From contig PMUI01000070.1 in assembly GCA_003166955.1 (NCBI GenBank), positions 1 through 64,000 of the forward strand: a stretch of DNA of 64,000 bases, given 5' to 3'. Under the pieces are notes generated by a model, which was given only the letters and a program-made list of their open reading frames with translations, was not told the DNA's origin and did not search any database. This document shows, in pieces, positions 7,837-63,365 of the stretch. Position 1 is the stretch's first letter, and each line of letters opens with the position of its first letter. A program made the translations under genes and the position numbers. The stretch is from Acidobacterium sp. Its GTDB lineage: Bacteria > Acidobacteriota > Terriglobia > Terriglobales > Acidobacteriaceae.

Positions 7837-9213
7837 ATGAGTGCTGGGGCGGTTGGGTATGCGAAGGAGAATGCGGGGCGGTTTCTGGAGGAGTTGAAGA
7901 CTCTGTTGCGGATTCCGTCGGTGTCGACGACGCCGGAACATAAGGGCGATGTGGAGAAGGCGGCGGAGTGGGTGGCGGCGGAGCTGCGGCGGATTGGGAT
8001 GGAGCATGTAGAGGTGATCCGGGCGGCTGAAGGGCACCCGCTTGTATATGCGGATTGGCTGAAGGCTGCGGGGAAACCGACGGTTCTTTGCTATGCGCAT
8101 TTCGATGTGCAACCGCCGGATCCGCTCGACGAGTGGGTGTCGCCGCCGTTTGAGCCGACGGAGCGGAATGGGAACTTGTACGCGCGCGGGGCGGTGGATG
8201 ACAAGGGGCAGCTGTGGTCGCAGGTGAAGGCGCTTGAGGCGCTGATGAAGAAGGACGGCAAGCTGCCCATCAATGTGCGCGTGATTTATGAGGGCGAGGA
8301 GGAGGTGGGCGGGGAGCGGATTGCTGCGTTTGTGCGGGATCATCCTGAGCGGCTGAAGGCGGACTTCGCTCTGATTTCGGATACGGAGATGTTTGCGCCG
8401 GAGCTGCCTACGCTGTGCGTGGGGCTGCGGGGGATGATCTACACGGAACTGGAGGTGCGGGGGGCGAAGACGGATCTGCACTCGGGAATGTATGGCGGGG
8501 CGGCGCCGAATCCGTTTGTGGCGCTGGCGCAGATTATCGCGGGGCTGAAGGATCGCGAGGGGAAGATTTCGATCCCTGGTTTCTATGACGATGTGAAGGC
8601 TCCGAGCGCGGAGGAGCTTGCGGCGTGGAAGAAACTTCCGTTCGATGAGGAGGAGTATCGGGAGAAGGAGGTCGGGGCTTCGAAGCTGGTCGGCGAGAAG
8701 GGGTATTCAGCGATTGAGCGGACGTGGGCGCGGCCTACTCTCGACGTGCATGGGATTGTGGGCGGGTTTATCGGCGCGGGGGCGAAGACGGTGATTCCGG
8801 CCAAAGCTACGGCGAAGGTTTCGATGAGGCTGGTGCCTGACATGACGCCGGAGAAGAGCTTTCGGCAGTACAAGGAGTATGTCGAGAAGATCAAGCCGGA
8901 GGGCGTGACGGTGGAGGTGCGGCTGATCCACTCAGGCGAAGCGATTGTGATTGGGACGGACAATCCCTACGTGAAGGCGGCGACGAAGGCGCTGAAAAAA
9001 GTGTGGGGGAAGGACACGGTCTTCATCCGCTCAGGCGGATCGATTCCGATCGTGGGGGATTTCGAGAGGTTCCTGAAGATTCCTTCGGTGATGATGGGGT
9101 TTGGATTGCCGGACGACGGGCTGCACGCGCCCAATGAGAAGTTTCATATCGCGAATTTTCATCGGGGGATTGAGAGTCTAATTGAGTTCTTTGACGAAGC
9201 CGGTAGCCTGTAG
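7837..9213 (+). CDS. M20-family dipeptidase/metallopeptidase, 458 aa
   Basis: A zinc peptidase of the M20 (ArgE/DapE/carnosinase-like) family. Metal and catalytic residues are visible: H88 and D90 in AHFDVQP, bridging D121 in GAVDDKG, the glutamates of YEGEEEVGG (154-156), ALISDTE, and a C-terminal His in DDGLHAPNEKFH. The long dimerisation insert is present (LHSGMYGGAAPNP region). The ATG at 7837 is preceded by GAGGTG six bases away. The last codons and the TAG stop lie inside a heptad repeat (9198-9225), so the natural C-terminus may have been changed by the repeat. The peptide substrate is not predictable. Confidence 0.9.
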   Translation: MSAGAVGYAKENAGRFLEELKTLLRIPSVSTTPEHKGDVEKAAEWVAAELRRIGMEHVEVIRAAEGHPLVYADWLKAAGKPTVLCYAHFDVQPPDPLDEWVSPPFEPTERNGNLYARGAVDDKGQLWSQVKALEALMKKDGKLPINVRVIYEGEEEVGGERIAAFVRDHPERLKADFALISDTEMFAPELPTLCVGLRGMIYTELEVRGAKTDLHSGMYGGAAPNPFVALAQIIAGLKDREGKISIPGFYDDVKAPSAEELAAWKKLPFDEEEYREKEVGASKLVGEKGYSAIERTWARPTLDVHGIVGGFIGAGAKTVIPAKATAKVSMRLVPDMTPEKSFRQYKEYVEKIKPEGVTVEVRLIHSGEAIVIGTDNPYVKAATKALKKVWGKDTVFIRSGGSIPIVGDFERFLKIPSVMMGFGLPDDGLHAPNEKFHIANFHRGIESLIEFFDEAGSL

Positions 9214-9225
9214 CCGGTAGCTGGT
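9198..9225. repeat. 7-bp tandem array that contains the stop codon of the dipeptidase gene
   Basis: The units are AGCCGGT, AGCCTGT, AGCCGGT, AGCTGGT. The TAG stop (9211-9213) of the dipeptidase gene is part of units two and three. Confidence 0.65.
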
Positions 9226-12801: not shown

Positions 12802-12941
12802 CGAAGAGCCGACAGCGGATAGGAGGCCCGAGCCTGGTTTGGTTCGGCGCTCACGTTTGCGATGGACGCGTCGTTGGCGGGGGGTCGCGCATCTGGTAAT
12901 GTGGTAGGTCGGGCGCGAAAGAGGCGAAGGAAGAGAGAACG

Positions 12942-13226
12942 ATGGCGAAGGCGGTGTGGAACGGGAAAGTGCTTGCAGAAAGTGAGACTTACGAGACGGT
13001 TGAGGGGAACGTGTACTTTCCGGATGGCGCGGTGAAGCGGGAGTTTCTGCGACCGAGCTCGACGACGTCGACCTGCCCGTGGAAGGGACAGGCGCGATAT
13101 TACAGTCTTTTGGTGGATGGACAGGAGAATCAGGACGCTGCCTGGTACTATCCGAATCCAAATCCTGCGGCGCGGAACATCAAGAATCATATAGCGTTCT
13201 GGCGTGGTGTTGAGGTGGAGAAGTAG
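12942..13226 (+). CDS. DUF427-family protein, 94 aa
   Basis: A small cytosolic protein matching DUF427: AVWNGKVLAESETYETVEGN, VYFPDGAVKREFL, then the conserved STCPWKGQARYYSL and a C-terminal AWYYPNPNPAARNIKNHIAFW. The family fold is known but its biochemical role is not. Length equals the usual single-domain form. It starts at MAKAVWNG (12942), after a purine-rich stretch (GGAAGAGAG). The TAG stop opens a long heptad repeat array. Confidence 0.85.
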   Translation: MAKAVWNGKVLAESETYETVEGNVYFPDGAVKREFLRPSSTTSTCPWKGQARYYSLLVDGQENQDAAWYYPNPNPAARNIKNHIAFWRGVEVEK

Positions 13227-13461
13227 CCGGTAGCTGAGAAGCGGGCAGTTAAGAACCGGTCAGCGATAAAACCGTCAGCGGAAACGGGTCAGCTGAGATG
13301 CGGGCAGGGTAGCGTTTAGCGAATAGCCCTGGCCACGGAAAACCGGCTGGCACGCTTTCCGCTGACAGAGCTTTCTGCTGGCCGGTTCTAGCTGGCAGGT
13401 TATTTAGCTGACCGGTTCTTAGCTGACCGCTCTTTAGCTTGCCGCTTCTCCAGCTAATGGC
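13224..13461. repeat. Two opposed 7/14-bp repeat arrays in a convergent gap
   Basis: The first arm (13224 to about 13330) runs from the DUF427 stop in 7-base steps, often as 14-base pairs (TAGCTGAGAAGCGG, GCAGTTAAGAACCG, GTCAGCGATAAAAC). The second arm (about 13361-13461) carries the same kind of unit on the other strand and ends at the galE stop. TAAGAACCGGTCAGC at 13250-13264 is perfectly complementary to 13407-13421, so a large imperfect hairpin is possible in transcripts from either side. It may act as a bidirectional 3'-end element. Confidence 0.65.
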
Positions 13462-14427
13462 TTAACGATAGCGGATTTGGTGCCATTCCCAGGCGCTTTC
13501 GATGATCATGTCGAGGGTAGTGTGGCGGGGTTTCCAGCCTAGTTCGCGGGCGATCTTTTCAGAACTGGCGATGAGGACGGCGGGGTCTCCGGGGCGGCGG
13601 GGCTGGATTTCGATGGGGATGGGGTGGCCGGTGACGCGGCGGGCTGATTCGATAACCTCGAGGACGGAGAATCCGGCACCGTTGCCGAGGTTGTAGATGA
13701 GCTGCTCGTGGTTGGCAAGTGCCTCAAAGGCGAGGAGATGGGCGTGAGCGAGGTCCTCGACGTGGATGTAGTCGCGGACGCAGGTACCGTCTGGGGTGGG
13801 GTAATCGTCACCGTAGATCCTGATATGGCCGCGACGGCCTAAAGCGACCTCCAACACAAGAGGGATAAGGTGTGATTCGGGTTCGTGTGCTTCGCCGCGG
13901 CCGCCCATGGCACCGGCCACATTGAAGTAACGCAGACTGGCGTAACGCAGACCGTGTACTCGGTACATCCAGCTGAGCATTTTTTCCACCAGAAGCTTGG
14001 ACTCGCCGTAGGGGTTGGTGGGGCGGAGAGGCGCGTCTTCGGGGATGGGAGTTACGTCCGGTTCGCCATAGACGGCGGCGGTGGAAGAGAAGACAAGGCG
14101 AAGGACGCGGGCGGTGAGCATGGCCTCGAGAAGGGTGAGCGTGGAGGCGCTGTTGTTGCGGAAGTAGAGCTCGGGTTTCTGCATGCTGTCGCCGGCTTCG
14201 ATGAGCGCGGCGAAATGCATGACCCCGTCAAAGCCGGAGGCGAGGAGTTTTTCGAGGGCGGAGCGATCGGCGAGCTCGCCGTGGACGAAGTCGACGCCAG
14301 CGGGAAGCAGTGCGCGGGTGGCGTGGCAGAGGTTGTCGTAGACGACGACGGCATGGCCCTGTCGTGCCAGTGTTAGCGCAACCATCCCCCCAATGTACCC
14401 AGCGCCGCCAGTGACCAGAATTCGCAA
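13462..14427 (-). CDS. galE: UDP-glucose 4-epimerase
   Basis: Interconverts UDP-glucose and UDP-galactose (Leloir pathway; also supplies galactose for surface polysaccharides). An extended SDR: the NAD-binding TGGAGYIGG at the N-terminus, the catalytic serine/threonine region SSTAAVYGE, and NPYGESK with the Tyr-x-x-x-Lys pair, then LRYFNVAGA and GTCVRDYIHVEDLAHAH. At 321 aa it has normal length. It appears to start with TTG at 14427, preceded by GGAGGAAGAG; no in-frame ATG lies upstream near enough. It converges on the DUF427 gene through the repeat block. Confidence 0.93.
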   Translation of the reverse strand: MRILVTGGAGYIGGMVALTLARQGHAVVVYDNLCHATRALLPAGVDFVHGELADRSALEKLLASGFDGVMHFAALIEAGDSMQKPELYFRNNSASTLTLLEAMLTARVLRLVFSSTAAVYGEPDVTPIPEDAPLRPTNPYGESKLLVEKMLSWMYRVHGLRYASLRYFNVAGAMGGRGEAHEPESHLIPLVLEVALGRRGHIRIYGDDYPTPDGTCVRDYIHVEDLAHAHLLAFEALANHEQLIYNLGNGAGFSVLEVIESARRVTGHPIPIEIQPRRPGDPAVLIASSEKIARELGWKPRHTTLDMIIESAWEWHQIRYR

Positions 14428-14957
14428 GCTTCTCTTCCTCCAATCCTCTATGCTATTTGAGTCTCTGCTGCGTCTGACTTTTTATAGTCCATCGGGAAAA
14501 GTCCCTCGACAGCGGTAATCGTCGGCGGTGGCAAATGACTCCCGGGTCCATCCGAGGAAAGGCTGATCGGCTATCGGTAAGGACTTGCGAATGCACACCG
14601 CGAGAGGGTAGAGAAAGTGAACGAAGAAGGGCTGGGACGCGTCGTTCACACCATGGCAAGACCCAAAATGGGCACGCTTCTGCCTCGTTCGTGTGACTGT
14701 TGGAGGTAATCCACAGGAGTACCTTCAAGTCACCACTTGTGCGAGTAGAAGTACCTATAGGAAGATCAAAATGGTAACCCCACTTTGCAGGAGAGATCAT
14801 TTGGGAAAGGGGTCCCGCCGCTTTGAGGAAAAGATGTCTGGAATCGGGCCACCTCGGAAAATCGCTGGTCATCAAAGTGCATAGCACCAGGGATGCACTC
14901 AAACAAGAACAAAGAGTCGCAACTTCTTTTCGCGGGTGATGTTGGAGATACAGGGCA
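14428..14957. other. 530-bp intergenic region between galE and the TonB-like gene
   Basis: Divergent promoters for galE and the envelope cluster must lie here. The 202-codon open frame on the minus strand (14453-15061) has no protein character and runs into the TonB-like gene, so it is rejected. The composition is less GC-rich than the flanking genes. No tRNA, riboswitch or repeat was recognised; a small RNA cannot be excluded. Confidence 0.4.
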
Positions 14958-28653: not shown

Positions 28654-28681
28654 CAGCCGGTAGCCGGTAGCTGGTAGCCAG
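28654..28681. repeat. 7-bp tandem array between ilvB and ilvN
   Basis: The units are CAGCCGG, TAGCCGG, TAGCTGG, TAGCCAG, starting two bases after the ilvB stop. This is the cleanest example of the TAGCCGG subtype. Confidence 0.7.
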
Positions 28682-36707: not shown

Positions 36708-36730
36708 TGGGAGCCTCCAGCAATTCCAGC

Positions 36731-36777
36731 AATAAAGTGGGCAGCTAAAAGGCGGTCAGCTGAGAAGCGGTCAGTGA
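36731..36777. repeat. 7/14-bp array between the two permease genes
   Basis: The units alternate as GGGCAGC, TAAAAGG, CGGTCAG, CTGAGAA, GCGGTCA. It shares the CAGCTGAGAAGCGGT unit with the block at 13224-13461, which ties the two loci to one repeat family. Confidence 0.6.
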
Positions 36778-63268: not shown

Positions 63269-63274
63269 CCGCCC

Positions 63275-63365
63275 AGCTCCCAGCTCCCAGCTCCAAGCTC
63301 CTTGCTTCCCGCATCCCGCTTCCCGCTTCCTGCTCCCTGCTTCCTGCTTCCTGCTTCCTGCTTCA
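63275..63365. repeat. 7-bp tandem array, 13 units, beside parS site 2
   Basis: Read on the + strand the units run AGCTCCC, AGCTCCC, AGCTCCA, AGCTCCT, TGCTTCC, CGCATCC, CGCTTCC, CGCTTCC, TGCTCCC and then TGCTTCC repeated. On the minus strand it begins at the TGA stop of the RMD1-family gene (63363-63365). It is the longest and most regular array. A looser one lies at 63170-63227. Confidence 0.75.

Follow-up and report, generated by a model that had tools for sequence, protein, structure and literature searches.

Why does the short gap between two convergent genes of a soil bacterium hold two arrays of one repeat unit on opposite strands, and does this arrangement serve the gene pair or point to something more widespread? 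We addressed this question in a window of 64,000 nt, the whole stretch of Acidobacterium sp. DNA analyzed (contig PMUI01000070.1 of GCA_003166955.1). The initial annotation had described two opposed arrays of a 14-bp unit filling the gap between a DUF427 gene and galE, forming a giant hairpin from either transcript, and had raised the question of whether such paired arrays are limited to convergent gaps. In the following, genomes, contigs, and fetched loci are labeled G, C, and L with a number, and the draft genome of the window (5.41 Mb) is G000. Genes were called with our own codon-model caller, so start positions are rough.

Structure of the opposed arrays

The described arrangement was confirmed. 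The 235-nt gap between the two stop codons holds an array of a ~15-bp unit on each strand, each starting shortly after the stop codon of its own gene (Table 1). The period is 15 bp with occasional 14- and 16-bp steps, so that the annotated 14 bp was slightly wrong, while the annotated perfect complementarity of a 15-nt segment in the two arms was correct. Because the 55 nt between the arrays are not made of the 15-mer, the description of the gap as filled was nearly right. The longest inverted repeat is 52 nt at 77% complementarity. The annotated recurrence of the unit elsewhere in the window was also found.

RNA folding predicted a long hairpin for both transcripts, with a minimum of -133.1 kcal/mol on the + strand (z = -8.8) and -110.9 kcal/mol on the - strand (z = -6.7); none of 200 dinucleotide shuffles was as good for either strand. 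A bidirectional intrinsic terminator would need a GC-rich stem followed by a T run on each strand; four weak terminator-like sites were found in 12900-14500 against 1.3 expected, three of them within the arrays and none of them the long hairpin. No Rfam family matched the window at gathering thresholds.

Table 1. Positions of the features in the 64,000-nt window.
Position	Strand	Feature	Details
12942-13226	+	DUF427 gene (PF04248)	TAG stop at 13226 anchors the left array
13227-13461		Gap between the two stop codons	
13222-13466		Predicted long imperfect hairpin of either transcript	
13232-13305	+	Left array	Five ~15-bp units; 5' end 5 nt after the DUF427 stop; sense to that gene
13250-13264 and 13407-13421		Exact reverse complements	
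13306-13360		Loop region	Includes a short 7-bp array, TAGCGTT/TAGCGAA/TAGCCCT; too short for an IVP gene
13361 (approximate)-13454	-	Right array	Three high-scoring units (13410-13454); five copies at 13373-13449 by direct-repeat search; more degenerate ones beyond; 5' end 7 nt after the galE stop; sense to galE
13462-14427	-	galE-like NAD-dependent epimerase gene (PF01370)	Stop at 13462 anchors the right array
14428-14957		Divergent gap upstream of galE	Long conserved blocks across five congeners, such as GCAAGACCCAAAATGGGCA; no Rfam family at gathering thresholds
36728-36772	+	Single three-unit array of the same family	Between two tandem - strand genes
9198-9225, 28655-28679, 63272-63364		Other 7-bp arrays	AGCCGGT, CCCAGCT/TGCTTCC

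Abundance and polarity of the arrays

We next asked whether the unit occurs more often than expected by chance. Inside the window alone, single units were barely above chance (43 against 30.1 expected, largest shuffle 41). Genome-wide, however, a 17-mer pattern of the unit with up to 2 mismatches gave 212 matches against 35 for the reversed control, and a weight matrix with array chaining gave 31 arrays at a score of 20 or more in 1.26 Mb against 1 on reversed sequence, excluding chance. At the same threshold, 69 arrays were found in a 1.84-Mb sample of the genome: 51 in tandem gaps (34 sense, 17 antisense), 9 in convergent gaps, 7 in divergent gaps, 1 inside a gene, and 1 at a contig edge. 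Most of them are single. The array inside a gene (L164 3323-3457, on contig C56) consists of nine 15-bp units running in frame through a loop of a membrane protein, taken to be of the M56 type, and gives LADRF-like repeats; of five orthologous loci fetched, two could be aligned (L245 and L253, identical there), and these have other sequence in the loop.

The arrays follow a rule of polarity in which they start at gene edges and point away from the gene. For this analysis, 6 of the 69 arrays were left out (one inside a gene, one at a contig edge, two single units, and two in a gene-poor stretch). Of the 63 scored intergenic arrays, 53 have their 5' end nearer a gene, 9 show the reverse, and 1 is a tie (p = 1e-8). 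All 40 arrays that face a stop codon in sense orientation begin -6 to +24 nt from it. Away from stops, the rule is weak for 15-mers (13 versus 9 overall), with 8 versus 7 and 1 tie in antisense tandem arrays and 5 versus 2 in divergent gaps.

The gaps of this genome also hold many 7-bp arrays, and triplet autocorrelation at lag 7 was 3.2% in gaps against 1.8% in coding sequence. We identified 132 heptamer-period arrays in 121 of 1,020 gaps; leaving out 18 ambiguous arrays and 1 tie, the purine strand starts nearer a gene in 89 against 24, with 50 stop-proximal sense against 11 antisense arrays and 19 against 10 start-proximal ones. Heptamers are in register with the stop codon: after TAG stops (n = 328), NAG triplets peak at +7, +14, and +21, and after TAA stops (n = 232) at +6, +13, +20, and +27, whereas after TGA stops (n = 387) there is no clear phase. 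For 10.0% of TAG stops, the heptamer beginning at the stop is repeated at +7, against 2.0% for TGA and 2.8% for TAA, so a TAG stop is sometimes itself a repeat unit. TAG accounts for 328 of 947 stops before gaps of 45 nt or more but for 36 of 227 before gaps under 10 nt in the 1.84-Mb sample, as if arrays supply stop codons.

From this polarity, a gap with arrays at both edges should show inward-facing arrays. All 4 gaps (of 944) with 15-mer arrays on both strands show this arrangement, where 1.05 two-strand gaps were expected (p = 0.02). The opposed arrangement in the window follows from each array starting at the stop codon of its own gene.

Pairing between the arms

To test whether paired arrays are tied to convergent genes, we compared the two halves of gaps of 80-450 nt. 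Strong complementarity (alignment score of 24 or more; not all of these are arrays) occurred in 5 of 105 convergent gaps (swapped control 7 of 622), 8 of 427 tandem gaps (7 of 2,560), and 0 of 159 divergent gaps (3 of 953), with p = 0.15 for convergent versus tandem. Of the 4 gaps with 15-mer arrays on both strands, one is convergent (that of the window) and three are tandem. A simpler comparison by 7-mer sharing gave an inverted excess only in convergent gaps, but the alignment score showed it in tandem gaps too. The galE/DUF427 gap of the window is the top scorer, yet its arms rank only 12th of 66 in mutual match (the other three pairs rank 19, 66, and 10), so many other arrays of the family would pair as well, and a special co-adaptation of the two arms was rejected. 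The interpretation in the initial annotation was therefore only partly supported: the hairpin from either transcript is right as a prediction, but the reading as a device of convergent gaps is not supported. The refuting observation named in the annotation, paired opposed arrays occurring equally often between tandem genes, was met in part.

A 7-mer-sharing analysis of gap ends was blunted by a second abundant intergenic repeat, CCGGGTGCCCCATTCTG (e.g., C97:111293-111503), one 8-mer of which occurs in 39 gaps. In that analysis, same-gap sharing was 26 of 849 against 83 of 4,070 within 3 kb and 1.3% between contigs, so part of the same-unit excess is regional, and outward-outward sharing exceeded outward-inward sharing only slightly (37,584 versus 32,160).

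We also examined the ribosomal protein operon of this species and nine congeners, in which 68 of 133 gap-by-species cases carry a repeat array after the stop (shuffled null 0.8% for heptamers). The analysis was run without the rplE-rpsH gap, whose constant length near 355 nt suggests an uncalled S14 gene, and left out three other gaps with unsure gene calls. Paired arms occurred in 9 of 105 cases, against 10 of 602 for the same gap with the arm of another species and 24 of 1,096 for another gap of the same species (p = 0.0006 and 0.001). The medians of own and swapped arms did not differ (p = 0.36 and 0.12), and only the high tail did. In such cases both arms carry the same unit although it differs between species, for example TTTAGGGATTAG/CTAAACCC in one species and GGGTATAGGGTG/CTATACCC in another at rplR-rpsE. 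Array presence clusters by gap (p = 0.0065).

Turnover and distribution among genomes

The hairpin is not conserved at this position. In five congeners, the same galE/DUF427 gap carries a single 15-mer array (L033, L034), a heptamer array (L037), or no array (L035, which has an N gap there, and L059). The neighboring divergent gap has CAGGGTA-type heptamers in four congeners and GGCGTTC-type heptamers in the window.

A 17-mer pattern had 129 matches in the window's genome, 1 to 74 in 11 congeners, and 0 to 2 in 49 other genomes, which at first suggested a genus-restricted repeat. This reading was ruled out by a 27-bp two-unit pattern, which was found in 8 of 150 family genomes (5 of 79 genera), with no control hits in all 150. 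These comprise four genomes of this genus (G003 of the genus has none) and one each of four other genera (42, 61, 7, and 7 hits), while two sister species of the 61-hit genome have none. Among 299 class genomes, only 4 have a match, three of them with 1 to 3 hits. In 20 loci fetched from five genomes with the pattern, 15 of 15 neighboring opposed arrays face inward (13 in the four other genera and 2 in the congener G004), and 35 of 41 arrays have the 5' end nearer a gene; 7 of the 20 loci had been chosen because both strands were already seen. All 19 opposed 15-mer pairs seen in this study thus face inward.

Association with IVP genes

To investigate whether the arrays belong to a mobile element with a conserved interior, we compared 19 interiors of opposed pairs. 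In general such an interior was rejected: the best match (score 59) was a single pair of loci from different genera (L275 and L284), and three weaker matches (31, 30, and 25) exceeded the shuffled maximum of 24. The best pair encloses a gene of PF05635, the 23S rRNA-intervening sequence protein/four-helix-bundle protein family (IVP).

We then took the best PF05635 match of 30 of the 43 genomes searched and compared the 300 nt upstream with the 300 nt downstream. Complementary flanks (score of 24 or more) were found in 22 of 30 loci, against 83 of 870 swapped pairs (p = 1e-15) and 12 of 359 ordinary genes of the window's genome (p = 5e-21). Two of the 30 are the loci that suggested the idea, and a third, L305, was known to have a 15-mer nearby. 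Twenty further loci gave 16 of 20 against 35 of 380 (p = 2e-12), for a total of 38 of 50 genome loci (swapped flanks 9%, ordinary genes 3%), whereas five more loci already at hand gave 2 of 5. In 20 of the 22 paired loci the upstream flank is the more purine-rich (in four of them by 0.06 or less), which is the polarity of the window. IVP genes lie inside pairs of the window's own unit in L275, L284, three congeners (G004, L305; G010, L310; and G011, contig C1), and L278, which has one weak flank.

The IVP genes of the window's own genome fit less well. Of seven matches, with the C90 copy broken into two pieces, only 2 of 6 loci reach the threshold (scores 44 and 34; the others 23, 23, 18, and 18), although the C67 copy shows matching heptamers on both sides by eye. 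None of the six has 15-mer flanks, so a cognate IVP for the window's unit is missing in this genome.

In public plasmids, 9 of 12 IVP genes fetched (of 35 hits; eleven cyanobacterial records and one from Gemmatimonadota with 8-bp repeats) lie between matching opposed repeats, against 25 of 132 swaps (19%; p = 1e-4). These include two flanked by heptamer arrays between cas6 and cas4 on two cyanobacterial plasmids (L325, L327) and one between ribonucleotide reductase subunit genes. Clear pairing was lacking in 12 of 50 genome loci and 3 of 12 plasmid loci.

Across 36 genomes, IVP matches correlated with the summed counts of three heptamer patterns (TAG, the reversed control GAT, and CAGG), with rho = 0.75 without correction for kinship (TAG alone 0.70, CAGG alone 0.64, genome size 0.44; outside the genus 0.76, n = 24). 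All 22 genomes with 3 or more IVP matches have 30 or more heptamer hits, and 13 of 14 with 2 or fewer have 9 or fewer; the exception, G057, has 38 hits and no IVP. A prediction written down beforehand for seven other genomes fitted six of them, although 38 of the 162 hits in G100 come from one long array, and missed G069, which has 3 IVPs and no TAG heptamers but 42 15-mer hits.

Interpretation of the arrays

Our preferred reading, to which we give a probability of about 0.5, is that the gap holds a gene-less copy of a dispersed element family, with two short-tandem-repeat arrays facing each other, each starting at a stop codon. Our data establish that the unit is genome-wide, that arrays start at gene edges with the purine-rich strand reading away from the gene, most strictly at stop codons, that the 15-bp unit is patchily present in other genera of the family, that IVP genes often sit between matching opposed repeats of 7-, 8-, or 15-bp units in records of three phyla, and that IVP copy number tracks 7-bp array abundance. 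It is inferred, by analogy with the intervening sequences of 23S rRNA, that IVP plus its two arrays is the complete form, an insertion element of gene edges, and that array-only pairs such as this one are copies without the gene, as REPINs are to RAYT transposases. The association does not prove that IVP makes the arrays, and on present evidence no insertion with a clean empty site supports this view. Excision is likewise inferred: the transcribed hairpin is probably cut by RNase III, as the IVP-bearing inserts of 23S rRNA are (PMC4990558), or else tolerated, so that insertion right behind a stop codon would do little harm. Help in spreading from a polymerase or reverse transcriptase is only a guess from the kinship of IVP with Avd, which serves a reverse-transcriptase system (PMC10053308).

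The strongest alternative, which we consider unlikely, is that the arrays are neutral simple-sequence repeats made by replication slippage, with template switching across the gap making the second arm, selection removing only those that damage genes or promoters, and IVP genes unrelated. The fast unit turnover at fixed gene edges, the absence of hairpin conservation, and the near absence of 15-mer arrays from coding sequence (1 of 69, the exception sitting in frame in a protein loop that a relative builds differently) agree with this view, and slippage is one hypothesis for heptamer abundance given in PMC4692102. However, the same 15-bp unit recurs in five genera while sister species lack it, which independent slippage would hardly give, and the polarity, the stop phase, and the IVP association and correlation remain unexplained.

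Slightly less likely, the arrays come first and the IVP gene is a passenger that inserts preferentially into the loop of existing opposed arrays. Array-only gaps far outnumber IVP loci in this genome, and IVP flanks carry different units at each locus. This does not by itself explain why array abundance tracks IVP copies across genomes, unless abundant arrays simply offer more landing sites.

A paired-array device for the convergent gene pair, such as a bidirectional terminator or 3'-end stabilizer, is improbable. In its favor are the strong predicted hairpin on both strands and the finding that in this genome complementary gap halves occur only in gaps with a stop codon (13 of 532 convergent plus tandem versus 0 of 159 divergent, p = 0.047). 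However, pairs were also found between ribosomal protein genes of one operon, the hairpin is not conserved at this gap, the arms are not co-adapted, and in other genera paired 15-mer arrays also lie in gaps called divergent (L254, L255, L264). Finally, although GGG-bearing heptamers could form G-quadruplexes, as shown in vitro for Xanthomonas repeats (PMC4692102), a role of the units as DNA- or RNA-protein binding sites or quadruplex-forming regulatory sequence is very unlikely, because the consensus of the 15-bp unit has no GGG run, units change between species at the same gene end, and the Xanthomonas study found no regulatory role (PMC4692102).

Our data also leave room for a broader but doubtful possibility, namely a class of bacterial mobile elements whose ends are opposed tandem-repeat arrays and whose only gene is an Avd-like four-helix-bundle protein (IVP). 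Such elements would insert at gene edges in Acidobacteriota, Cyanobacteriota, Gemmatimonadota, and probably Xanthomonas, rewrite their repeat unit from copy to copy while keeping both arms matched, and leave gene-less arrays and hairpins in many intergenic gaps, so that the long-known heptamer repeats of cyanobacteria and Xanthomonas would be their traces. Heptamer repeats lie in many gaps of Nostoc, Xanthomonas, and, as found here, a number of Acidobacteriota, without a known agent or function, and IVP genes are a common family for which no role is known. The two appear to be parts of one system, which gives each a testable partner and suggests a kind of mobile DNA built from a retroelement-accessory-like protein and self-matching repeat arms.

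Comparison with known systems

Our literature searches, in which subscription journals were mostly not covered, revealed no paper that reports such arrays in Acidobacteria or links PF05635 to flanking tandem repeats. Two IVP proteins scored weakly, below the curated cut-offs, with the bAvd and DivGenRetAVD models of the diversity-generating retroelement accessory protein Avd, a homology noted in PMC10053308, but no PF00078 reverse transcriptase match was found in this draft genome, and PF00078 does not track the 15-mer. The TAACTGA direct repeats of Beggiatoaceae are likewise abundant intergenic heptamer arrays that are patchy across phyla (PMC4679880), but they consist of one fixed heptamer and in the main species lie mostly just upstream of start codons.

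REP/REPIN elements with RAYT transposases (PMC3116915) offer a further parallel. They combine dispersed intergenic inverted pairs with a rarer copy flanking a protein gene. Here, however, the Y1 transposase (PF01797) does not track the 15-mer, since G069 has the 15-mer and no PF01797 match, whereas G003, G100, and G150 have PF01797 and no match to the two-unit pattern, and the protein is a small four-helix bundle.

In the intervening sequences of 23S rRNA with an S23/IVP ORF, as in Coxiella, an IVP-family gene is bordered by complementary ends that form a stem cut by RNase III (PMC4990558). That system is a single stem inside an rRNA gene, whereas the present arms are tandem repeats in protein-gene spacers and are dispersed also without the gene. 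The window copy has complementary ends but encloses no IVP ORF, only the 55-nt loop, while other pairs of the same unit do enclose an IVP.

Among the GGGAATC/GGGGA(C/T)T heptamer repeats of Xanthomonas and Nostoc, inward-facing intergenic heptamer pairs themselves are already known from Xanthomonas, with 70 and 75 such pairs in two genomes (Rehm et al. 2015, PMC4692102). The arrays described here share the position near the 5' neighboring ORF with downstream-coding or upstream-noncoding polarity, although for 15-mers this is weak away from stops. The nearest solved structure to IVP is XCC0516 (2gsc), and XCC is the locus prefix of Xanthomonas campestris, which belongs to the genus with the best-described inward-facing heptamer pairs; the terms xcc0516, ribosomal protein, 23S, and four-helix do not occur in the main text of that study. 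The window's unit, at ~15 bp and without a GGG run, is not a G-rich heptamer, though 7-bp arrays exist elsewhere in the genome. Whereas one heptamer family per genome was studied there, here we found many heptamers plus a 15-bp unit shared across genera, in phase with stop codons, and linked to IVP genes.
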